Below are positions 470 through 23,573 of a stretch of DNA of 23,602 bases, piece by piece (position 1 is the first letter of the stretch; every line of letters starts with the position of its first letter). Source of the stretch: a virus; the IMG/VR virus record IMGVR_UViG_3300032087_002368, positions 1-23,602 of that record; one strand, given 5' to 3'. The notes under the pieces were generated by a model. That model was not told the DNA's origin. It searched no databases and worked only from the letters and a program-made list of their open reading frames with translations. A program made the position numbers and the translations under genes.

Positions 470-916
470 TTAAGTGAGGTAGTACGACCATGCGACATGG
501 CCGTCCACTGAGCCGCTGCCGTGACCTTCAATTAACAGGCTCTCGTAAAACGGTATTCTGGAGAGTGACATACCATGTATAGTGTTGCCGTAATAAAGCA
601 ACCCGGCGATCCAATAATACTTATTTGTCGTGGGAGTACCACTAAAACTGTACACTTCTACTCCGTCGATGGTGATTCTCGCACCAGAAACATTGGGCGA
701 GGATTGGCTGTTTGAGGAGTGACCCGCCATTTCAAGCACCCCTGAACCCGTTACGCTCAGCATCGTAACGAAAGACGCCGATGTTGTAGAGCCGACGGTA
801 AGGCCGTAAATACCTGCGCCCGCGGCGAAACCAACTGCTGCGGTTGCTGTTTTGACAATAAGCGATGTCGGTGCTCGGTCAATCGGAGAAACAACTGGTT
901 CTGTTATCAAAGGCAT
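470..916 (-). CDS. Small fibre-module protein, 148 aa
   Basis: This is an unrecognised protein rich in Ser, Gly, Thr and Tyr with an alternating pattern typical of beta-structured virion proteins. Residues about 20-45 form a Gly/Ala-rich hydrophobic stretch (TATAAVGFAAGAGIYGLTVG) that might be a membrane-like or trimer-core segment. The C-terminal half contains YYWIAGLLYYGN and ends HVAWSYYLT. Its ATG shares one base with the stop of the upstream gene (TAATG), so translation is probably coupled. Position next to the tail fibre suggests a fibre-tip or accessory adhesin role; this is inference. Confidence 0.75.
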   Translation of the reverse strand: MPLITEPVVSPIDRAPTSLIVKTATAAVGFAAGAGIYGLTVGSTTSASFVTMLSVTGSGVLEMAGHSSNSQSSPNVSGARITIDGVEVYSFSGTPTTNKYYWIAGLLYYGNTIHGMSLSRIPFYESLLIEGHGSGSVDGHVAWSYYLT

Positions 917-1224
917 TATTCGTCAAACCCCATTGCTACCATGTTTACATTGGTCGTGTCTGATTCGCCCACGATGTGCTGGTTGCCCTCTAGCACGATC
1001 TGCTTGAAGGTGGCAGTCTCATTGTCTGCGAGAGACAGAGACTCAATTAGCTTGCCTTCTGGCTGAAAGGTATTAGAGACCGTACTAACTCCCAACTGAA
1101 CAATCGCAGTTGATCCAGATGTGTTCAGAATCTCCACGTTAAATGTTCCACCGTCTGCGCCTGCCTGAATAACGTCAGCAGCTGTTGCGGCAGTTAGATT
1201 GACTCGCCCGTTCTTTGCGGCCAT
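916..1224 (-). CDS. Small beta-rich fibre-module protein, 102 aa
   Basis: The sequence shows repeated beta-strand-like segments (GTFNVEILNTSGSTAIVQLGV, with no cysteines and no membrane segment), consistent with a single small beta-sandwich. Its ATG overlaps the stop of the preceding gene by one base (TAATG), and AGGAGG lies seven bases upstream inside that gene, so it should be well translated. The conserved-looking opening MAAKNGRVNLTAATAADVI is of a kind I associate with small phage virion proteins. A role as a fibre or particle-surface component follows from the neighbours only. Confidence 0.75.
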   Translation of the reverse strand: MAAKNGRVNLTAATAADVIQAGADGGTFNVEILNTSGSTAIVQLGVSTVSNTFQPEGKLIESLSLADNETATFKQIVLEGNQHIVGESDTTNVNMVAMGFDE

Positions 1225-1628
1225 TACATGCCTCCTAAAAAGAATTGTTTAGCGGTTGAAGTACCACTGCCACCGCTAGAAAAGAACCAAGTATCTGTAT
1301 CGATTTTATAGACCGTAGCAAAATCGTACTGTCTGACGACCAGATCAGTGTCAGTGCCGACACCCGACGCCGATAAAGTTGCGGCACCATCGGCAGTTAC
1401 TGTGATGTCCCCCGCACCTTCGTTGTAGATCGGGATCACAGACCCTGTTGGAAAAGCCGTAGTAGCATTTAGCGGAATCGTCCACGTATACGGGTTGGCA
1501 TCGGTAGAAGTAAACAGTTTTGAGTCTTGGTCACCTAAAGCAAAAGTGCGGTTCTGGTTAACAACAACCTTTTCCAGCTCATAGGTGGCAAGCGTGCCAG
1601 TTGAGTAAAAGTTCGTAAGGTTTGTCAT
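1224..1628 (-). CDS. Fibre-like protein with C-terminal-fibre-type beta domain, 134 aa
   Basis: The central part (TWTIPLNATTAFPTGSVIPI ... ITVTADGAATLSASG ... YDFATVYKIDTDTWFFSSG) matches the layout of the beta domains at the C-terminus of the adjacent 1155-aa fibre: a polar strand, a T.P.N/S turn, G-D/S-V, ITV..., then an aromatic strand ending near GW or WF. It looks like a free-standing copy of a fibre tip domain. The end is Gly-rich (FFLGGM). Its ATG overlaps the fibre stop (TAATG), and GAGG lies about five bases upstream of the start. It is probably a tail-fibre accessory or tip protein. Confidence 0.75.
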   Translation of the reverse strand: MTNLTNFYSTGTLATYELEKVVVNQNRTFALGDQDSKLFTSTDANPYTWTIPLNATTAFPTGSVIPIYNEGAGDITVTADGAATLSASGVGTDTDLVVRQYDFATVYKIDTDTWFFSSGGSGTSTAKQFFLGGM

Positions 1629-4600
1629 TAGAGCCTCGTTGTCCAGCCGTCTTCAGTCAGATAAAGCAAAGAGAAGTATTTAGGTGAAGCAACGTCCCAA
1701 ATCAAGTCCGTTGTTTCATTTTCTATCTCTGAACCATTCCGCAAAAACGTCACATTATTAGCTGAAGGGTCAGAACCGTTTACAAACCGGAAGAAAACTT
1801 CATCGCCTTCTGTGGGTGATGCAGGCAGTGTGACGTTAAACCCGGCACTTGTGCAGTCCAGTTTGTACAGCTCGCCTGCGACTGCTGTAAAAGCGCTTGT
1901 TTGTACGGACGCCTGTACTGTGAAGCCAGAGCCGGTCGTTCCACTTGTACCCGCAACGGCAGCAGCGCCGACAGGCAACCAGCCGTTAGTAGTCCCGGTA
2001 TATATCCATGGCGTAGACCAGTTGTTGATGTCGATAAGACCATCTTCAGCAGCTCGCAAAACATTGGAGCCGTTACGAGCTAACGTGACTGCGTTAGTAC
2101 CGAAAGTACCAGTCAGGTCTATAATCCCAAAGGTGTCCCCAACAGTCGGTGACAACGGCAGTGTTACAGTGAACGCGCCCCCGCTTGTGTCTACGAGATA
2201 CTGGGTGCCGCTAGTTACTGTAAACCCAGCAGTTTTAGCAACCGAGTCAATTTCTAGTACGTTTAGCGAGTCCAATAAAGCTGCTTGGTGTTGAGTAACG
2301 CTAGACTCGGATATGTTGCCCGCGTTTATGTCTGTAGCACCTTGGTCTGTCGTCCAGTCGATGTGCTCGTTGGCTACAAAGCCTTGGAAGCTATCGTGGT
2401 CTAGCGAAGCCTGCATGTACCCGCCAAGTACGGAAACGTCTGTCCGCTTAAGCGCACCACTGTCGTTAATTAGCAATTCGTCGGCGTCGACTATGCCTGT
2501 AGTTAGCGCGGTTCTGTTCGTAATAGCAGAAACAGTAAGCGTAGTAGCTCCGTCACTACTGGACGTAACTTCTCCCGTATGGTCTGGGTGACTGTAGTTG
2601 TTTGCGTTAGCTGATATACCATTAAGTTTTGAGTGGTCAGCATCGGTGAACACATTACTGTCTGTAGCTGCTTCTACCGCAGCACGTATCTCCGCGTCGG
2701 TTTGATCCGCTGTAGCTCCGGCCTCTATACCATTAAGTTTTGAATGGTCTGCGTCAGTAAACACGTTACTGTCTGTAGCTGCTTCTACCGCAGCGCGTAT
2801 CTCTGCGTCGGTTTGATCCGCTGTAGCGCCGTCTTCTACGTTAAGTAGCGTTCTAACACTAGCGGGTGTCAATTCTTCTGAATCACCGGAACCCGCCGTT
2901 GCCCTACCTAAGATAGTGCTGGTGGCAACGTTTGATACTACGTCAACAGCATGGGCTAAGTCGCTAATTTGAGACTCAGTAATCGACAGCGCTGCTTGGT
3001 GCTGGGTTACTGAAGCCTCAGATATGTTAGCAGCATTTATGTCTGTAGCGCCCTGATCTGTTGTCCAGTCAATGTGCTCGTTGGCTACAAACCCCAGTAA
3101 GTTGTCGTGGTTTACCTCAGTCTCAATCTCTGACTTTAAATTAGACCATGTAATTTTACGGTGGCCGTTAGCGCCTGCATCCCATATAGGAAACGCGTCC
3201 GTATTTGTTAAGTTAGTGACTCCAGTAAGGCCATTGACATCCATATCAATGGTAACGTTGCCAGTTATGTCTCCTGAACCACTGAGACCTACACCACCAG
3301 AAATAGTGATAGCGCTGTGGTCAACGTGCTCGTTGGCTACAAAACCTGTCAGGTTATCGTGGTTTACGGCGGTCTCTATCTGCCCGGCAGTGACTGCGCC
3401 TGTCTGACCCACAACTGACTGAACAAGGTCCGTGTAGTCAGCTTTAAACCAGTTGTTCGCGTATGTAGTTGTAGATGCGTTATCTGTTATCGCGATGATG
3501 CGATCGTTCGCTGTAAACGAAACAGAGTCTACTGTACCGCTAACCGACACAATCCAAGACTCTCCTGCCTGTGCAGTGCCGCCGCCGGGGAACGAACCGG
3601 ACGACGCGTCCCATGTACCCATGAGGATAACGGAGGCATCTAGCTCATTGACGCGAGTCTCGATCGCGTCTAGGTCAACCGCTTGGGTGACGGTTAAGTG
3701 GCCTACCTTGGTCTGCTCTGCATCTGTATAAGCGTTGGTGTCAGCCTCTGCTTCATACAATGATTTGATTTCTGCGCCAGTCTGGTCAGCCGTCGCGCCA
3801 CTTTCAACGCCATCTAGTTTGGTCTTGTCTGCCGCAGACATGAGACCTGCAAGGCTAGTAGTAGCTGGCACCAGTGTGATATCTGTACCCTGATCTATGT
3901 TGATCGGCTGATCAGTAGCTGTCGTAGTACCTAACGACAAGTTGGCGTCTTTTATGTAGCCTGCTGTGCTTACTGCCGTGTCTAGGCTAGTTGTAACCGC
4001 CTGATTTGAGGCGTTGCCTAAAAAGATATTTCCGTCGTTCAGGTTTGGTGTAGTTGCAGAACGCCCTGCACCGCCCACTTTGATTGACCCTACAGTAGCG
4101 TTAGAACGTTTAACTTTGCCGACGTTTTGTATCTGTGCGGACTCTCCGGTAGGTGGTGTGCTGGTGAGCACGCCCGGCGTAGTACTAACAAAAAGATTAT
4201 TGCCTACGGAAAACGATGACGTATCTAGGCTGGACAACGTACCGAAAGTGACGATTTCAACGGCTGAAGATGCAGAGACTGATGCAGCGGCCAAACCAAA
4301 CGCAGGCATTTTACTGGCGTTGTCAGCGTCGGCTAGAGCGACAGTCACTGTGTTGCCGGACACGCCGGTTATGTATACAGCTTGACCTTTTGTAATAGCT
4401 TCGTCGGCTTGGGCGCTAAACCGCACCGCGCCGTTTAAGTCACCGAAAAACTCAGGTGCAGTAACGTTGTCAGTAAATGTTTTTTCGCCACCTACGGTCT
4501 GGTTTCCGGCGGTAGTTACTGCATCAGTAATACCGTAGCCAGATACCGTAGTTGGCTTGCCGGTTATGTCAGTGGCAAAGTCCCACGTCAGTGCGTCTAC

Positions 4601-7334: not shown

Positions 7335-8030
7335 CTATGGCGCGGCCGGAACCGGCGCATTAGGGTTTGTAGGCGACTGAGGCCCAGCTTGAATTGTCGC
7401 TGAAATCTCAATGCCTAGTGCGTTTGCAAAAGTCGCATAATGCGCCTGTGCACGGTTGGCGTTACCGGCATATTCGCTATCCTTAGTATAGGCTCTGTAC
7501 AAGATGTAGTCTTGTATCACGTTGCCGTATATATCAGGTACGTTAATGTTTCCGGTCACATCCTCCCACGTAGCCCCGTTGCCCGGTTCCGCGATGTCGC
7601 TAGGGTATATTGAGTACACAATATCTAGCTTCGCAGAAGTCGTAGCTGGCGGGTATACATAGAAAACGTCTCTGTCCCGTGGGTCGTACATATAGTGCAG
7701 AATTTCATCCTGCCCGGTAATGTCGTGCCAATCGGGGGTTTGTGCGTCGAGAATTTCTCGATTGACAAGTCGAACGGCTTTTTTACTGCCAGTCGAGTTG
7801 TTACGCACGATTTCAATTAGCTTTGAGCCATCTGAAGGGATGGTCTGTTTGCTGCCGGTTACCAACGTAACCGTACTGTTCTGAACTAGCGCATCGGGAC
7901 GGTACAGTGCAACTTCACGCTGACCGTCGTTAAGATACCGCACAAGTTCGTCTACAGGCCACCTTACAGATGAGCTATCTTGTAGAATATCTACACACCG
8001 TCTAACGATGCTTTGTGCTGATATAGCCAT
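7335..8030 (-). CDS. Head-tail adaptor-like protein, 231 aa
   Basis: The helical N-terminus (RRCVDILQDSSSVRWPVDEL, then VRYLNDGQREVALYRPDA) followed by a beta-rich middle (Y.YDPRDRDVFYVYPPA) and a C-terminal helix ending in Ala/Pro is the layout of the adaptor proteins of SU10/phiEco32-type podoviruses. Those proteins sit under the portal and form the connector. The C-terminal helix (IQDYILYRAYTKDSEYAGN) is a common signature of that family. A GAGGTG site lies six bases before the ATG, and the previous gene stops four bases upstream. The 209-aa neighbour looks like a distant relative, so two adaptor rings are possible. Confidence 0.75.
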   Translation of the reverse strand: MAISAQSIVRRCVDILQDSSSVRWPVDELVRYLNDGQREVALYRPDALVQNSTVTLVTGSKQTIPSDGSKLIEIVRNNSTGSKKAVRLVNREILDAQTPDWHDITGQDEILHYMYDPRDRDVFYVYPPATTSAKLDIVYSIYPSDIAEPGNGATWEDVTGNINVPDIYGNVIQDYILYRAYTKDSEYAGNANRAQAHYATFANALGIEISATIQAGPQSPTNPNAPVPAAP

Positions 8031-8033
8031 TTA

Positions 8034-8663
8034 TCACCTCACAAAAGGGGTCGGTCTGGCGGAAAGAGAACTTATTGTCCTACCAATATTACCCTCAATC
8101 CGTGCGTTTTGGCAGGCCGCATACGCTTTATAAGCGTAGTTTCTTGCCATCACGGGGTCAGAGTAAGGCTGATCGCTAGAGTTCATAATTCGGCTCAGCG
8201 CCCCAAATACAAGCGCCTCATGCCAGTACGTGTATAAATCGTCCTCTAAGCGAGACGCGTTGCGCGTAGGGCGCAGTGCTACAGACATTTCTATCGTGTA
8301 GACGTCGTCCGGCGTAGGATACAAGTTTAACTGCAGCTCAGACTCGTTTTGTGTAACAAAGTAGTGCGTTGGCAGTGAATCACTTGTTTCTACAAGCGGT
8401 TGATTCCAAGCAGGTGCCGACTTAAGTTCTCGACCGTTAACTTTTAAGTACACCACGCGAGAAAAGTCTTGCGACGCTGGCAAGTCGAAATCGTAACGCG
8501 CCACGCTAGCGGTAGTGTACGCAATATCTGGTACGTACCGTATAGCTAATGACTTGTCACAAAAACTAATCGCAGCGTCGACAAGGGACTGCTCTGCCAA
8601 AGTATTGGGGCACCCAATAACATGCGGCAGTATTCGCGGCAAGAAGTCAGACAATGATTTCAT
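8034..8663 (-). CDS. Second adaptor/connector-like protein, 209 aa
   Basis: The architecture resembles the next gene: N-terminal helices with an invariant-looking small-residue stretch (IGCPNTLAEQSLVDAAISFC), a strand-rich middle (ELQLNLYPTPDDVYTIEMSV) and C-terminal helices with W.EALVFGALSRIM and ARNYAYKAY.A. The segment L.LYP.P.......V.L.P.......L..W.EA...GA is common in phage connector proteins encoded after the capsid gene. No signal or membrane segment is present. The ribosome-binding site is weak (GAGA). It probably acts as a connector between portal and tail. Confidence 0.72.
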   Translation of the reverse strand: MKSLSDFLPRILPHVIGCPNTLAEQSLVDAAISFCDKSLAIRYVPDIAYTTASVARYDFDLPASQDFSRVVYLKVNGRELKSAPAWNQPLVETSDSLPTHYFVTQNESELQLNLYPTPDDVYTIEMSVALRPTRNASRLEDDLYTYWHEALVFGALSRIMNSSDQPYSDPVMARNYAYKAYAACQNARIEGNIGRTISSLSARPTPFVR

Positions 8664-17783: not shown

Positions 17784-18179
17784 TTATACCAGCAGTATTT
17801 GCTTTTCAGGGATGTTGACAATGAACGGGCCGTTGGTGCTCGTATAATCAGCCCCCCAACTACCTACAAAAAGCGACGCGTTGTTTTTAGACGTGTCGTA
17901 CACCATATACCCAGCCGCTGTTATTGACGCTTTCGGCCACTCTGCGTTGTCCCAAGTTATGTAAGCGCTACCGTCCGTATCGGTTTCCACGCAGCAGTTG
18001 GACAGCTTTATGCCGCCCGGCGTATATCCTGCACCGGACGCTTCACCTTCGGAGGTATACGCAGCGGTCATAGGCCCAATTTCGGCCTCAGCGGTGTACA
18101 AAGCAAGTTTACAGGAGTCGTTAATAACAGACTTCAAAAACAGTACTTTAGCCGCCGTTGTCAGGCCCGACTCGATCAT
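17784..18179 (-). CDS. Small conserved virion protein after portal, 131 aa
   Basis: The sequence reads as a family of small phage virion proteins: an N-terminal helix, DSCKLALYTAEAEIGPMTAA, then YTSEGEASGAGYTPGGIKLS, a WDNAEWPKASITAAGYMVYD strand pair and a closing FIVNIPE strand. Many tailed phages encode a similar 120-140 aa protein with LALYT....LG..T.AYT..GE..G.GYT.GG. It is commonly left unnamed or called a head or fibre protein. The ATG overlaps the portal stop (ATGA), so translation is coupled. A particle-surface role is likely but unproven. Confidence 0.78.
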   Translation of the reverse strand: MIESGLTTAAKVLFLKSVINDSCKLALYTAEAEIGPMTAAYTSEGEASGAGYTPGGIKLSNCCVETDTDGSAYITWDNAEWPKASITAAGYMVYDTSKNNASLFVGSWGADYTSTNGPFIVNIPEKQILLV

Positions 18180-20302
18180 CCATTACGTCCTGACGCGACA
18201 TTTCGCATTGTGTTACCGTCGCGTCCGCCGACAGGCGAACCGTCGGGTAAAGTCGGAGCAACCTTTCTGCGTGTTGCACCCGTGACGTTGCCTTGAGCAT
18301 CACGGGAGAACTCGACGTTATCTGGTGCAGCATCCATAGACTCCTGCATCATCTCCAGCTGTTGCTGCAGCTGAGCGATCATTTGTTGTTGCTGTTCCAT
18401 AACCGAAACCTGCTGTCTGTCCGGTACGATACGGTCAACGTTCATGTTTAAGTTAGTCGCGGCGTCACGCAACAGCTCTGCGGCCCCGCTGGTGCCAACG
18501 ATCTGACTAGCTATCGGGCTACTAAGTACCAACTGCAAGAACTCGCTGCGGCGTATTGCTTCTGCCTCTTTAACCACAAGAGAGCTAGCCCCCCGTGCAA
18601 CGACTTGCAAATCGCCAACAATGTCGGGGTCTTTGTTGTACCGCAAGTTGTCGTGGTACAGACGTTCGATCGCAGGGACAATTACGTTCTTGTCGATGTT
18701 GTTAATGACCTGCTTTATGCCTTTACCGGCGTTGCTGATCATCATAGAAAGACCAGACGACGTTCGTCCTGCTCCGGCCGTGTGTTCCCCTGTCATGTAT
18801 TTAGGGATCATCGTGTCTTCGTCGGCGCGGTCTGAAAACTTCTCAAACACCGCCATAAGCTCTTGCGCATTACTACTCGGCTGGAAAAAGTCCAGCGGGC
18901 GAGAGCCGTCGTTAAACTCACTGGACTCGAACTGCCATATCTTCCACGGGTGTAAGTCGGTTATGTCTTCGCCCGGCGGCAGTCGGGATACGTTGACGCC
19001 TACCTGCGGCCCGGAAGAAATGCCCATGTTGTTTGACAGCGCTCGCGCTGTAGCGTTGACCATAGCCTGAGAGTCGCGACACAGGTCAGCAACGCCGTTA
19101 CCTGCGACGCTGCCCGGCTTCTGCTCGTACGAAGTTACGTAGTATGGCTTACGGTTGACCGGGTCGTAGTTAAGCACAGCGCGGATAACGGTGCTGCCAA
19201 TAACCCAGACCTCGCAAGAGTAACTTAGGTCGGGGTCAGGTATTTCATCCTCTGACATACCCCACTCAAGCAACAACCGCCCTTCGATCTCGTCCCACAA
19301 CTGTATGGCGTCAATCAAGTCGTCAGTGTTTTCAGAGTAGTATTCTGACTTACCTTCTGCTTCGGCCTGCTCTGTGTCTCGCCAAAGCCACTCGTTCAAG
19401 AACCCGTGCCGGAAGTGCGTCAGTACGGTTCGTATCGCGTCTTCGTTGTAGCCGGGTACGCCCATCAACGACTGCAAGTCAGTCGCGGTCATTTTGTGGC
19501 GCTCAATAACAAAACCGTCATTGATGTTACTCGCCCACGGTGCCCAGTACAGCATGAACGGGTCTACCCGCTCCCACTCGTTACGGACTACGTCAGTCGG
19601 GACCAGTTGATCTCCCTGCCACTTCATGACTCTGCGCTTGCGCTTAATCGGCCCTTTAAGGCACGCAAACGGGAACGTCACAATGTCATCAATAAAATCG
19701 TTGAACGCCTTCTGCCAGCCGCCTTCTATGAGCTGGTCTTCCATCTTACGTTCCATGCGGTCGACGCGCTCGTCAGCTTCCTCTTTAAACGCCCGAAACG
19801 CCTGCTCCCGCATCTGGTCAGCAATATCACGCAGCTCTTGCTCTGAAGGCATCTCGCCTACCTGCTGCATAGCCGCAGTGAGTTGGGTGGCTAGTTCTGC
19901 CTGCAGCGCTGCCATTAAACCTTGAGGTAGCTCTGGCTCGGGCGTCGATCCGATCGACCACGGCTTGTCGCTCCCGCTCCCTAGCAGCGTATCCCGCAGC
20001 CAGCTAGTTGCCGCCCGGCACTTTACGGATGTAAGCCGGACAAAAATATCCGACCCACCTTGTTGCCTAATTTGTGACTGAACGTTAGGATCATACTCAC
20101 CGTTGCGCTGCCGAAGGCACTGCAACATACGGTCTTCAAGGTCAACGCGGCTGTCTTTTGCAAGCGTCCAGCGTTTGCGAACGTGCGCGGCGAGCCCCTG
20201 CATAGTGGGGGAGGCTTGGAGCTTGTCATTTCTCGCTGCAGCTTCTTGCTCTAATTTAGACGCGCTGGCGACAGGTATGAGGGATGCGGCAACGTCTGCC
20301 AT
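18176..20302 (-). CDS. Portal protein, 708 aa
   Basis: The dodecameric channel for DNA entry and exit. Length matches the large P22-type portals of short-tailed phages. Features in order: N-terminal helices; a block (SDIFVRLTSVKCRAATSWLR, then DTLLGSGSDKPWSIGSTPEP) marking the clip/wing start; an acidic, Arg-rich helix (EEADERVDRMERKMEDQLIE); a central wing with WERVDPFMLYWAPWASNIND; the stem/crown part (YMTGEHTAGAGRTSSGLSMM and ISNAGKGIKQVINNIDKN); and a C-terminal Gln/Met coiled coil (QQQQMIAQLQQQLEMMQESM) consistent with a barrel or crown. It follows terL by 52 bp, with a weak GTGAG site before the ATG. Confidence 0.92.
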   Translation of the reverse strand: MADVAASLIPVASASKLEQEAAARNDKLQASPTMQGLAAHVRKRWTLAKDSRVDLEDRMLQCLRQRNGEYDPNVQSQIRQQGGSDIFVRLTSVKCRAATSWLRDTLLGSGSDKPWSIGSTPEPELPQGLMAALQAELATQLTAAMQQVGEMPSEQELRDIADQMREQAFRAFKEEADERVDRMERKMEDQLIEGGWQKAFNDFIDDIVTFPFACLKGPIKRKRRVMKWQGDQLVPTDVVRNEWERVDPFMLYWAPWASNINDGFVIERHKMTATDLQSLMGVPGYNEDAIRTVLTHFRHGFLNEWLWRDTEQAEAEGKSEYYSENTDDLIDAIQLWDEIEGRLLLEWGMSEDEIPDPDLSYSCEVWVIGSTVIRAVLNYDPVNRKPYYVTSYEQKPGSVAGNGVADLCRDSQAMVNATARALSNNMGISSGPQVGVNVSRLPPGEDITDLHPWKIWQFESSEFNDGSRPLDFFQPSSNAQELMAVFEKFSDRADEDTMIPKYMTGEHTAGAGRTSSGLSMMISNAGKGIKQVINNIDKNVIVPAIERLYHDNLRYNKDPDIVGDLQVVARGASSLVVKEAEAIRRSEFLQLVLSSPIASQIVGTSGAAELLRDAATNLNMNVDRIVPDRQQVSVMEQQQQMIAQLQQQLEMMQESMDAAPDNVEFSRDAQGNVTGATRRKVAPTLPDGSPVGGRDGNTMRNVASGRNG

Positions 20303-20354: not shown

Positions 20355-21758
20355 TCAAGCATACATGTAGTTTGACTTTACGACTTCACGGCGCTGCGAC
20401 CGGCGGCTAACCCCCCTAACCGACATATCTATAACCGAGTCCGCGTACTGATTCGCGTCATGAACGTGGGACCATTCGTTCTTTTCTGGCGACTTCTCAA
20501 GCTGCCCGTCCCGCTTTTTCTTGTACCGATACCCATGAATGAACCCACGGACCAACATTGGGCACTTTTTGGGGTCAATCAAGTACAGCGCTTCCCCGTC
20601 AATCTGCTGGGATAGCAGCCTTTCTACCGCCTGTATGCGATATTCCGGCTTGTTGCTGGGTGGTTTAACACACCTATACCCCGCATTTTCCAAGGCGTTG
20701 ACCAATGTGACCTCGTTCAGCTGCTGTTTCATGAACCCTGCCGGGTCAGGCGCACAGACTAGATCATAACCGGGGTAATGCTGCGCCACGAACGGGTTCA
20801 ATTTTAGCCTGATGAACGTCTCGATGCCCATATTTTCACTGGTAATCTCGGCAAGCGTCACTACCCGCCCGCGTGGATCACGCTGTTTAAACACTGCTGC
20901 AGGCGTCCGCCCAAAATCGATCCCGATAATGATGGGATAGTCGTAATTCTCGATCGGCATGATGGATTCTTTCGCAACATGAAAATCCTGCCTGAATGAC
21001 CGCTCATATACCGGCGTACCCGCCAATGATCGCCCAAACTTGTTGTGGATGTAGACATCGATCCAGTCCTCAGTCTTCCCTTCGGCAAGGTTGACGTAGT
21101 AGTCCTGCACCAGATACTGAAGCCAATCGGCCTCGTCTGACAGCGCGCTGGGCTGCTGGAAGACACTCACGTTTTTAGGCGGCTCTGTCATCAGCTCCTC
21201 CCAGAACGTATCCGCGTCCGGCGCGTTGGTCGCCCCCCAGATGTGATGGTTGGGACTGCCGTCATCCTTAACGCACCCTCCATTGGCAACGGACGGATAC
21301 CGCCCTACCCGTCCTTGCAGGGCGTTATAGATATCAGGGTGAATTTCCCGGTACTCGTCTAGGACACCAAACGATGCTTCCAGCGACAGCAGCCGCCGCA
21401 CGTCATTCGCGTCGTCGAGCCCCCGAAACAGGACTTCACACTCCACATCATCGAACCGAAGGTAGAACCGCTTGTCTGTTCTGGCGAAGGAACCTGCTGG
21501 CCCTTCTGGAAACCACGTAAAAAACGTCGGCAGGGTCGCGTCCGTCAACATCTGGTTAGTGTTCCTGACCACCACAGCCCGTGACCGCCGTACCCCATCA
21601 GCCCCGGCTCTCATCATCTTGGCGTGATACGCGATTTTCAACATCGCAGCACTCGACTTGCCTGACCCAACCGGCCCTGATATCAGCGTCACAAAGTTTT
21701 CGTCAGTCAGAAACGGCACCAATGACGGAGGTGGCACGTATTTTGTTATGTTGCTCAT
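20355..21758 (-). CDS. terL: Terminase large subunit, 467 aa
   Basis: The packaging motor and nuclease. The N-terminal ATPase has a Walker A motif (GPVGSGKSS, residues 28-36) and a Walker B motif with the catalytic glutamate (VLDEY, D134/E135). The coupling region WGATN lies at 174-178. The C-terminal RNase H-like nuclease has acidic residues at D281 (IGIDFGRTP), D338 (CAPDPAG) and D434/D440 near the end (HDANQYAD), the expected metal-binding set. Length and order are normal, with no missing key residue. The ATG shares one base with the terS stop (TAATG), and GAGGA lies five bases before it, so the two subunits are translationally coupled. Confidence 0.95.
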   Translation of the reverse strand: MSNITKYVPPPSLVPFLTDENFVTLISGPVGSGKSSAAMLKIAYHAKMMRAGADGVRRSRAVVVRNTNQMLTDATLPTFFTWFPEGPAGSFARTDKRFYLRFDDVECEVLFRGLDDANDVRRLLSLEASFGVLDEYREIHPDIYNALQGRVGRYPSVANGGCVKDDGSPNHHIWGATNAPDADTFWEELMTEPPKNVSVFQQPSALSDEADWLQYLVQDYYVNLAEGKTEDWIDVYIHNKFGRSLAGTPVYERSFRQDFHVAKESIMPIENYDYPIIIGIDFGRTPAAVFKQRDPRGRVVTLAEITSENMGIETFIRLKLNPFVAQHYPGYDLVCAPDPAGFMKQQLNEVTLVNALENAGYRCVKPPSNKPEYRIQAVERLLSQQIDGEALYLIDPKKCPMLVRGFIHGYRYKKKRDGQLEKSPEKNEWSHVHDANQYADSVIDMSVRGVSRRSQRREVVKSNYMYA

Positions 21759-22435
21759 TATTCCTCGGGATATTCGAGCGGGTCTTCGCTGTCCATGAAC
21801 TCGTCTACCCAGTTCTGCAGCTCTGCCATCTTCTCTGCCGGGGTATCGAGTGTCACTTCTTCTCCCGATGTGTCGAGCAACACGACCGAATTGTGCTCAA
21901 TAAGCTCTGTAGTAGTTTCAGGATTGTTTAGTTCCAAGACAGGAGAAAAATTTTCTGAGCTCTGGGACTCCGACACGGGGTCCGGTGTAACGTCGACCGT
22001 CACAGTTTGAGGAGTTTGGTCACTTTGCGCCTGTTCAGGCAGTACGATCTGAATGCTGAACCCTGCTCCTGCCATAGCCGGGGAGTCCTTCTTTGGCTTA
22101 AGGTTCGCCCACTCCACTAGATTCTCCATGACCTTGGCGCGCACCGGGGCTGGTGTGTCCATGTCACGCCCTAAATGGTAGAAATTTGCCAGCATGTCTT
22201 CTGCCAGCACTCGGCACTTGGCTTCAAAACTAAATCCAGACTCGATAAGTTCGTTGGTGTAGTTTTGTAGGTACTTGACGTAGGTGGGGTTGGCGGCGAT
22301 CGCTGTGTACTCGCGCTCGGTCACGCCTTCTGATTTCAGTATGTCTCCTAATGGTAGATTTGCGCCGACGGTGTTACGTGCGACGGATAGCGCTAACGAC
22401 TGAAGAAACACATCTGCTTTAACGGCGCTGTGCAT
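21758..22435 (-). CDS. terS: Terminase small subunit, 225 aa
   Basis: The DNA-recognition subunit of the packaging terminase. The N-terminal ~70 residues are helical and carry a helix-turn-helix-like segment (GDILKSEGVTEREYTAIAAN). The middle (NELIESGFSFEAKCRVLAED and VRAKVMENLVEWANLKPKKD) is helical oligomerisation material, and the C-terminal 80 residues are acidic and disordered (end PLEYPEE), likely contacting TerL. I place the start at ATG 22435 (MHSAVKADVF). The same frame stays open to 22612, but that extension would translate the promoter and LexA box and yields a sequence unlike a protein. No strong ribosome-binding site precedes 22435, which leaves the exact start slightly uncertain. 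Confidence 0.87.
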   Translation of the reverse strand: MHSAVKADVFLQSLALSVARNTVGANLPLGDILKSEGVTEREYTAIAANPTYVKYLQNYTNELIESGFSFEAKCRVLAEDMLANFYHLGRDMDTPAPVRAKVMENLVEWANLKPKKDSPAMAGAGFSIQIVLPEQAQSDQTPQTVTVDVTPDPVSESQSSENFSPVLELNNPETTTELIEHNSVVLLDTSGEEVTLDTPAEKMAELQNWVDEFMDSEDPLEYPEE

Positions 22436-22501: not shown

Positions 22502-22517
22502 CTGTATAAATATACAG
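22502..22517. promoter_or_regulatory. LexA (SOS) box over the terminase-operon promoter
   Basis: CTGTATAAATATACAG matches the enterobacterial LexA operator CTGTATATATATACAG at 15 of 16 positions and is an exact CTG-N10-CAG site. The upstream flank TA also fits the 20-bp consensus. It covers the -10 hexamer of the minus-strand promoter at 22509-22514 and the probable start point, which is a repressing position. Binding has not been shown, but this is one of the strongest possible matches short of the full consensus. Confidence 0.85.
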
Positions 22518-22536
22518 GTAGTTGAAAAAATAGCAA
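22509..22536 (-). promoter_or_regulatory. Sigma70-type promoter for the terminase/virion operon
   Basis: On the minus strand: -35 TTGCTA (22536-22531), 16-bp spacer, -10 TATATT (22514-22509). The predicted start is near 22502, giving a leader of about 67 bases to the terS ATG. The upstream stretch AAATTTGC and the T-run in the spacer are AT-rich. The -10 lies inside the LexA box. This is the only promoter-like site I find upstream of the long minus-strand operon in this window. Confidence 0.65.
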
Positions 22537-22581
22537 ATTTTATGCGGGGAACGGATATTGGGTGCATGTGGGGGTGGGGCT

Positions 22582-22597
22582 GGGGGTCCATACCCCC
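22582..22597. other. G/C hairpin upstream of terminase promoter
   Basis: GGGGGT and ACCCCC form a perfect 6-bp stem with a four-base loop (CCAT). There is no T-run after it on either strand, so it is not a standard terminator. It lies in a very G-rich stretch (22561-22587) between the two divergent promoters. It could be a packaging or regulatory structure. Confidence 0.45.
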
Positions 22598-22601
22598 CTC
22601 C

Positions 22602-22611
22602 ACTACTATCA
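22602..22611 (+). repeat. ACTACTATCA repeat, copy 1
   Basis: Exact 10-base match shared with 22661-22670 and 23564-23573, all in non-coding DNA. Each copy is followed by a pyrimidine, a purine and C. Here it lies between the two divergent promoters. Confidence 0.7.
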
Positions 22612-22660: not shown

Positions 22661-22670
22661 ACTACTATCA
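22661..22670 (+). repeat. ACTACTATCA repeat, copy 2
   Basis: Second exact copy, 59 bases after copy 1 and in the same orientation. It is preceded by TTG, so the local sequence contains TTGACT, but no -10 follows at a usable distance. Confidence 0.7.
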
Positions 22671-22738: not shown

Positions 22739-22766
22739 TTGCTATAGGCTTTCAGACTGGTATAAT
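22739..22766 (+). promoter_or_regulatory. Sigma70 extended -10 promoter for the rightward gene
   Basis: -35 TTGCTA at 22739-22744, 16-bp spacer, consensus -10 TATAAT at 22761-22766, with TGG directly before it giving an extended -10. The transcript should start near 22773, with a leader of about 76 bases. The same -35 hexamer and spacer length occur in the divergent terminase promoter. Confidence 0.8.
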
Positions 22767-22796: not shown

Positions 22797-22812
22797 CTGT
22801 ACAGATATACAG
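22797..22812. promoter_or_regulatory. LexA (SOS) box 1 of a tandem pair
   Basis: CTGTACAGATATACAG is CTG-N10-CAG and matches the E. coli LexA operator at 14 of 16 positions. It lies about 25 bases after the predicted start of the rightward transcript and directly abuts box 2. LexA bound here would block initiation or early elongation. Confidence 0.75.
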
Positions 22813-22828
22813 CTGTACATACATACAG
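22813..22828. promoter_or_regulatory. LexA (SOS) box 2 of a tandem pair
   Basis: CTGTACATACATACAG is CTG-N10-CAG, also 14 of 16 to the consensus, with the flanking TA of the 20-bp consensus on its right. It starts immediately after box 1 and ends nine bases before the GGAGG of the rightward gene. Tandem or overlapping LexA boxes are known from colicin promoters, where they give tight repression. Confidence 0.75.
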
Positions 22829-22848
22829 TAATGATCGGAGGATCAACC

Positions 22849-23505
22849 ATGAGCAATAAGCTTTTTGAAAAATCGGACATCGTCGCGGGCATGCTGAAAG
22901 AGGCAGACGCCGGACATACCAGTTTGCTTAACCAGTACCATGCGGCCGCGTTGCAGTTCTGCAAAACGTTAACCGTTCCGGCCGGATCACTGACCGGTGA
23001 ACAGGTTAAAGCAATCACCAGCGATGCGCGTGCCATGTATAAAGATGATTTCGGCGGCGGGTTCGGCAGTTATGCGTCGTATTTCTGCGACGTTGTCGTC
23101 TTGAAACTGGCAGGCGATGCGCCGGTCACGTTCAAGGGCCAAGTTGTGAACGAAGCCGGAAAGAAAGAAACCGGTGACGTCGACAGCACTTGCGCGGAAG
23201 TTGCCGACGATGCGGCACGGTCAAAGCACGACATGTCACGCGCAGCGAAAGAAAGACGCGAGGAACTAGGCATAGGTCGCAAGACGTCGCCACGCGTGCC
23301 GCGTCCAGCTGGCGCCAGCAAAGCGGCATCCCCGGATCGCACGCAACGCCCTACCAACGTGCAGACCGCTAGCAGTAATGATATTGCCGGACAAGTTCGC
23401 GCATTGTTCGAAGTCAGCGACGAAGCGGCCGTGAACACGTTGAACCGGATTCTGTCAGAGCACGGTTACAGCGTGCGCAAGTTGCCTAAGAAAAAGGCAG
23501 CGTAA
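22849..23505 (+). CDS. SOS-box-controlled hypothetical protein, 218 aa
   Basis: I do not recognise this protein. Residues 1-95 look like a folded, mostly helical domain (VAGMLKEADAGHTSLLNQYH, GGGFGSYASYFCDVVVLKLA). Residues 117-145 form a charged helix (SRAAKERREELGIGRK). Residues 146-175 are a basic, Pro/Ala/Ser-rich linker. Residues 178-212 form a small helical segment (AAVNTLNRILSEHGYSVRKL), and the end is KKKAA. The basic tail suggests nucleic-acid contact. The start is ATG 22849: GGAGG lies seven bases upstream, while an in-frame ATG at 22831 precedes that site and has none. Two sample 60-base lines gave 55-58% GC, versus about 42-55% in sampled structural genes. It has its own promoter, two LexA boxes and a terminator. 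Confidence 0.85.
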   Translation: MSNKLFEKSDIVAGMLKEADAGHTSLLNQYHAAALQFCKTLTVPAGSLTGEQVKAITSDARAMYKDDFGGGFGSYASYFCDVVVLKLAGDAPVTFKGQVVNEAGKKETGDVDSTCAEVADDAARSKHDMSRAAKERREELGIGRKTSPRVPRPAGASKAASPDRTQRPTNVQTASSNDIAGQVRALFEVSDEAAVNTLNRILSEHGYSVRKLPKKKAA

Positions 23506-23563: not shown

Positions 23564-23573
23564 ACTACTATCA
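23564..23573 (+). repeat. ACTACTATCA repeat, copy 3
   Basis: Third exact copy, 14 bases beyond the terminator. With copies 1 and 2 it brackets the rightward gene in direct orientation. The rest of the right end (to 23602) shows no gene I can support. Confidence 0.65.

Follow-up and report, generated by a model that had tools for sequence, protein, structure and literature searches.

In colicin operators, two SOS boxes overlap. The only phage that host LexA is known to hold in its entirety is, to our knowledge, GIL01, a tectivirus of a Gram-positive bacterium with another LexA motif; a few temperate phages are held in part. In GIL01, which infects Bacillus thuringiensis, boxes for the host LexA lie downstream of the early promoter P1 and in tandem in the late promoter P3; LexA holds both the early and the late units, there is no dedicated phage repressor, and the phage uses a co-repressor, gp7, and an activator, gp6 (PMC4551915, PMC6182141). 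A different arrangement is that of the Gifsy antirepressors, in which the antirepressor gene under LexA control belongs to an integrating phage and lies outside its immunity region (PMC3121763).

The window analysed here, the whole stretch of 23,602 bp, is a 23.6-kb linear contig of a podovirus-type phage. As in GIL01, LexA-type boxes are present on both the early and the late side, judged here from predicted promoters. In contrast to the tectivirus, this is a tailed phage, and its motif is CTGT-N8-ACAG.

Gene layout and three palindromes of the intergenic region

The recognised late genes, which encode a putative small terminase subunit (TerS), the large terminase subunit (TerL), the portal, the major capsid protein and tail proteins, are all on the minus strand (Table 1). 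The putative TerS is the first gene of this late operon; a family search with the protein gave no significant match, and its name rests on position. A single gene, encoding a protein of 218 aa, diverges from the operon on the plus strand. Neither an integrase nor an S24/LexA-like repressor (PF00717) was detected in the window, which is a contig fragment, and a phage repressor may therefore be encoded elsewhere. PF00717 and PF00589 (integrase) were likewise absent from 14 other records, mostly relatives, the box-bearing contigs being fragments.

Table 1. Positions of genes, LexA-type boxes and predicted regulatory elements in the window
Feature	Coordinates	Strand	Remarks
Portal (head-tail adaptor type), late operon	18176-20302	-	phrog_332, E 1.5e-62
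Large terminase subunit (TerL)	20355-21758	-	phrog_2, E 2.1e-18
Putative small terminase subunit (TerS)	21758-22435	-	ATG at 22435; precedes TerL; start matches relatives
Box 1, LexA-type, CTGTATAAATATACAG	22502-22517	+	15/16; 25.8 bits (matrix start 22500)
Predicted late-operon promoter, TTGCTA-16-TATATT	22509-22536	-	Consensus match only, modest; not obvious in all relatives
ACTACTATCA element, copy 1	22602-22611	+	Follows GGGGGTCCATACCCCC hairpin
ACTACTATCA element, copy 2	22661-22670	+	Intergenic region
Predicted sigma-70 extended -10 promoter, TTGCTA-16-TATAAT	22739-22766	+	TG before -10; consensus match only
Box 2, LexA-type, CTGTACAGATATACAG, first of abutting pair	22797-22812	+	14/16; 18.6 bits (matrix start 22795)
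Box 3, LexA-type, CTGTACATACATACAG, second of abutting pair	22813-22828	+	14/16; 23.1 bits (matrix start 22811)
218-aa divergent early protein	22849-23505	+	Family by profile from relatives; structure by AlphaFold2
ACTACTATCA element, copy 3	about 23564-23573	+	3' of 218-aa gene

All three boxes fall between the start codons of TerS and of the 218-aa gene, and each is a CTGT-N8-ACAG palindrome close to the consensus, as in LexA operators of the gamma- and betaproteobacterial type. Boxes 2 and 3 abut with a 16-bp period in the leader of the 218-aa gene. A preliminary description of this DNA had placed the abutting pair at 22797-22828, with 14 of 16 consensus positions in each box, and both coordinates and letters proved exact; three strong sites in one divergent intergenic region, including the box at 22502, were likewise confirmed. 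It did not note that the box at 22502, box 1, belongs to the TerS-TerL side and is the one conserved in relatives.

Compared with the consensus CTGTATATATATACAG, box 1 has one mismatch and boxes 2 and 3 have two each, and no other site in the 23,602 bp has three mismatches or fewer. In 100 dinucleotide shuffles the mean was 0.03 matches, and none of the shuffled sequences gave three; these counts are independent of the weight matrix used in a second approach. The matrix, 20 bp in length, was assembled from 20 E. coli sites. In a scan of the contig it ranked the three boxes highest, at 18.6-25.8 bits, and the next best site, at 11.4 bits, was 7 bits under the weakest box; a Markov model gives an expectation of 0.08 matches of at least 16 bits per window. 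Both the ranking within the contig and the earlier claim that match quality and clustering exceed chance are thus borne out. The CTG-N10-CAG pattern alone is common, which would favour a chance similarity with no function, but such a reading is contradicted by the shuffles, as well as by the conservation and the control palindrome described below, and is scarcely credible.

The boxes overlap or closely follow consensus promoter matches at fitting places, although the promoters are predictions. The predicted early-side promoter points towards the 218-aa gene; the pair starts approximately 24 nt past its expected start point and ends upstream of the Shine-Dalgarno sequence GGAGG (22837-22841). 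On the other side, the -10 element of the predicted late promoter falls inside box 1. On the basis of these predicted positions, the boxes can be assigned to two divergent units, box 1 to the late one and boxes 2 and 3 to the early one. The location of the pair, in a predicted leader between promoter and Shine-Dalgarno sequence, could also be explained if it acted as RNA, the palindromes folding into hairpins in the 5' leader of the 218-aa gene. This is very improbable: box 1 overlaps the predicted promoter of the opposite side, the letters agree with LexA half-sites, a match that a hairpin as such would not need, and other phages carry pairs at other places.

The intergenic region contains further conserved elements. 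Many phages of the TerL family, including some that have no LexA box, carry the ten-base sequence ACTACTATCA upstream of TerS; it is possibly an early promoter or a regulator site. A block at 22520-22600 consists of AAAAATAG(G/C)AAATTTTATGCG..ACGGATAT, followed by a G-run and then by a GGGGG-nCCATA-CCCCC hairpin, and is common to relatives both with and without the LexA box.

Conservation and recurrence of the palindromes

Relatives of the phage were gathered by a TerL search, which gave 80 related loci. Box 1 is present at the corresponding place in L002, L004, L005, L006-L008, L012 and L016; its half-sites are the same throughout and its core takes three forms, and it adjoins a conserved block that relatives without the box also carry; in L012 and L016, other genes intervene between the box and TerS. 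Within the TerL family, the palindrome occurs eight times in 68 kb upstream of TerS, compared with no occurrence in the 534 kb that follow the TerL start. The abutting pair, within this phage family, was seen only in the window: it has no counterpart at that place in L005-L007, L012 and L016, and the contigs of L002 and L004 end before it. More distant relatives lack CTGTA-N6-TACAG and have an unchanged gene order, and LexA control is therefore not essential to the family. A contig of the box-bearing relative L012, designated L217, encodes a Mom-family DNA modification protein and, adjoining a DUF2201 metallopeptidase/VWA protein, an AAA ATPase (7462-8070 and 561-3026).

Outside the family, paired boxes recur widely in IMG/VR. 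Abutting pairs were found in three further records (L082, L083 and L084), in each case before a TerS-like gene; the pair of L082 is identical to that of the window at 30 of 32 positions, although the rest of the phage is different. Copies of a DnaA-box-like sequence, TTATCCACA, adjoin the L082 pair (1660-1730). Four CTGTA-N6-TACAG palindromes are arranged in tandem in L084 (2091-2154), L083 (11-76) and L097 (5613-5682). Pairs separated by 1-16 bp are present in 79 contigs. The gap is exactly 2 bp in 43 of 88 pairs; most of these gaps read TA, and adjoining 20-bp sites thereby have a flank in common. A control palindrome of equal composition, CTGAT-N6-ATCAG, was found as a pair with a gap of 0-16 bp in two contigs, compared with about 80 for the LexA-type motif. 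Pairs with an 8-bp gap before a 127-aa gene are present in L127 (8009-8048) and L162 (410-449), contigs which, judging from their names, are drawn from isolate genomes.

The distance to TerL was surveyed in 49 contigs with a gap of 0-3 bp, in 31 of which TerL is detectable. In 23 of these 31 it starts at a distance of 0.9-3.4 kb and its transcription leads away from the pair; in seven, at 1.9-3.8 kb, transcription runs towards the pair, and in one TerL is at 18.7 kb. Several contigs are near-duplicates, and the independent lineages are therefore fewer than these counts. The TerS genes beside the pairs fall into unrelated groups, one of which is that of the HMO-2011-type phages. A motif that is constant beside unrelated TerS and early proteins implies a shared ligand, for which a host factor is the best explanation.

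The nature of this factor is indicated by cellular genomes. The pattern CTGTA-N6-TACAG, paired with a gap of 0-3 bp, was scanned in 84,980 bacterial and archaeal genomes and gave 52 loci, part of which resemble chance matches (e.g. in Nostoc and Streptomyces). Pairs are located directly upstream of lexA, with a gap of 0 in two gammaproteobacteria (L173 and L208) and of 3 bp in two Acidiferrobacteraceae (L189 and L202), directly upstream of recA, with a gap of 1 bp, in five betaproteobacterial MAGs, and directly upstream of recN, with a gap of 2 bp, in three Chimaeribacter; these gene names are our own reading of the translations. Since the same tight pairs precede lexA, recA and recN, the palindromes of the window can be regarded as LexA-type operators, and these cellular SOS promoters are the strongest evidence for that proposed identity. 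A 3-bp-spaced LexA pair also recurs in Ralstonia and Cupriavidus genomes (L186, L196, L204 and others), and in three loci it is 8-9 bases upstream of a small gene of 89-90 aa (MDDLIRIENEYDRQTVAWLRNRLG...).

The palindromes could instead be operators for a repressor or activator that the phage itself encodes and that shares the LexA consensus. Palindromes that cluster where early and late units diverge are typical of phage operators, and the box-bearing relative L012 encodes a 181-aa protein that, by eye, resembles a ribbon-helix-helix and helix-turn-helix regulator, for which Pfam gives only DUF6290 (E 0.0067). However, several lineages have the motif next to TerS and early proteins that are unrelated to one another, bacterial lexA, recA and recN promoters contain it too, and an S24 protein is absent from the window and the 14 other records; a phage regulator is thus unlikely.

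The strong association with TerS-TerL, the many IMG/VR contigs that end near the pair and the DnaA-box-like copies in L082 might also indicate a role in packaging or replication, with the sites near terS serving for TerS binding, as cos/pac or as iterons. Against this, the motif stays constant while the TerS families are unrelated and is not specific to any one of them, TerL relatives without the motif keep the layout, and cellular SOS promoters carry the same motif. We consider this improbable.

Boxes are also present in isolated phages. Vibrio phage KIT05 (AP019417) has a TTGACA...TATAAT promoter followed by a box of 24.7 bits, in the leader of a tRNA-terS-endolysin-terL cluster. In Pseudoalteromonas phage J2-1 (MF988720), a TA-spaced pair of 25 bits each is located near one end, and three boxes are present in the stretch read. 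Aeromonas phage AerP_220 (ON624112) carries four boxes at its left end. These three phages are unrelated to that of the window, but resemble it in having strong boxes near the terS cluster or one genome end; KIT05 also shares the order of promoter, box and terS cluster. AerP_220 has been described as virulent, with clear plaques, and the boxes therefore need not mean dormancy; the words LexA and promoter are absent from the main text of the paper on this phage. No isolate belonging to the phage family of the window came to light, and a BLAST search of isolates with the window's pair gave partial matches only. Of the nearest isolates, neither Rollin nor Vibrio phage VA-RY-3 showed a box in the stretches read. 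CTGT-N8-ACAG was also absent from the stretches read of HTVC115P and HMO-2011, the two isolates with alphaproteobacterial hosts that were considered, as would be expected if the motif follows the LexA of the host.

The several strong sites per genome, present in lytic isolates too (four in AerP_220 and three in the stretch read of J2-1), would be consistent with a decoy function, in which the phage DNA, as it replicates, would titrate LexA and thereby induce host SOS functions of use to the phage, with little direct control of phage genes. However, the sites overlap or follow phage promoters rather than lying anywhere. In addition, LexA is abundant in E. coli, at about a thousand copies, and a few sites per genome would therefore titrate it only late. 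A decoy function is as improbable as a packaging signal.

The divergent 218-aa gene

The gene downstream of the pair had been described as an orphan, a label that holds by family look-up only. The 218-aa protein gave no convincing match in Pfam, PHROGs or the PDB, and a single-sequence search of viral contigs and phages found nothing. With a profile built from relatives, the family is recovered wherever a locus extends far enough on that side, in some loci twice, with 21-32% identity to the protein of the window. The 218-aa protein is therefore best regarded as a core early protein, given its homologues in those relatives whose contigs extend far enough. Members also occur in relatives without LexA boxes. 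Homology of the family with the early proteins of other paired-box phages found no support (hhalign probability under 1%).

The AlphaFold2 model (pLDDT 82.4) has a helical N-terminal part with a beta hairpin, a disordered basic linker (161-173) and a C-terminal helical hairpin. The basic linker and an isoelectric point of 8.9 suggest nucleic-acid binding. When the model was used for fold searches, the PDB gave no convincing match, and the one similar structure that emerged, in BFVD, belongs to an uncharacterised phage protein (A0A6J7WQ49, E 5.6e-10).

By analogy with colicins, it had been proposed that the protein is harmful if expressed early, or that it is the trigger of induction. Neither suggestion fits well: the family consists of conserved early proteins, at times accompanied by a paralogue, and has no match to known toxins in Pfam, PHROGs or the PDB; because it is conserved also in box-less relatives, an SOS-specific toxin or trigger is unlikely. 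As regards a tum-type antirepressor, no S24 repressor on which it could act was found in the records examined, and the protein showed no similarity to known families.

Proposed control by host LexA and comparison with known systems

The operator identity of the sites, their position, the conservation of box 1 and the recurrence of pairs beside TerS-TerL are all evident in the DNA, and we infer that LexA binds the boxes and regulates the adjoining genes; the LexA motif of the host is itself deduced from the operators. On this basis, the palindromes are probably host LexA operators in a divergent early/late region, which would hold both units until the SOS response. One LexA dimer on box 1 would cover the -10 element of the leftward TerS-TerL-structural operon, while two dimers on the abutting pair would block the rightward early transcript just past its promoter. 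With intact host LexA, both divergent units would be held down; when RecA filaments cut LexA, both would open together. RecA filaments could arise from damage to the host, or because infection itself gives rise to single-stranded DNA and breaks down the chromosome. The phage may stay dormant until damage occurs, as GIL01 does, or LexA may act as a timer by which the late genes are coupled to DNA stress in a lytic infection.

The paired-site layout beside packaging genes suggests that such viruses time their own genes by the host's damage alarm. More tentatively, it is possible that unrelated, integrase-less tailed phages of Proteobacteria have independently placed tandem host-LexA operators at the head of both the TerS-TerL operon and the divergent early gene, as an SOS checkpoint or timer for lytic gene expression in phages regarded as strictly lytic. 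A literature search, mostly outside subscription journals, found no report of LexA at terS, which is weak evidence of novelty. If the arrangement is recurrent at the TerS-TerL of lytic-type phages, the damage state of the host would gate the lytic growth of far more phages than is known so far, and this would bear directly on delayed lysis, on carrier states and on the synergy of phages with DNA-damaging antibiotics. Such gating is open to direct test in isolates, e.g. Vibrio phage KIT05 and Aeromonas phage AerP_220.

The LexA-controlled antirepressors (Gifsy; tum of 186/Fels-2) resemble the window in that a LexA-boxed phage gene links the phage to SOS; here, in contrast, the boxes flank a TerS-TerL operon and a core early gene, and an integrase and repressor were not found. 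In colicin operators, as in the window, two closely spaced LexA boxes precede one gene. The gene in the window, however, encodes a conserved early protein of phages that gives no indication of toxin function, and the boxes abut at 16 bp downstream of a predicted promoter, with a third box on the late operon. The lexA, recA and recN operators of Proteobacteria have the same palindrome with a spacing of 0-3 bp, but control cellular SOS genes, whereas the genes adjoining the boxes of the window are those of a phage.
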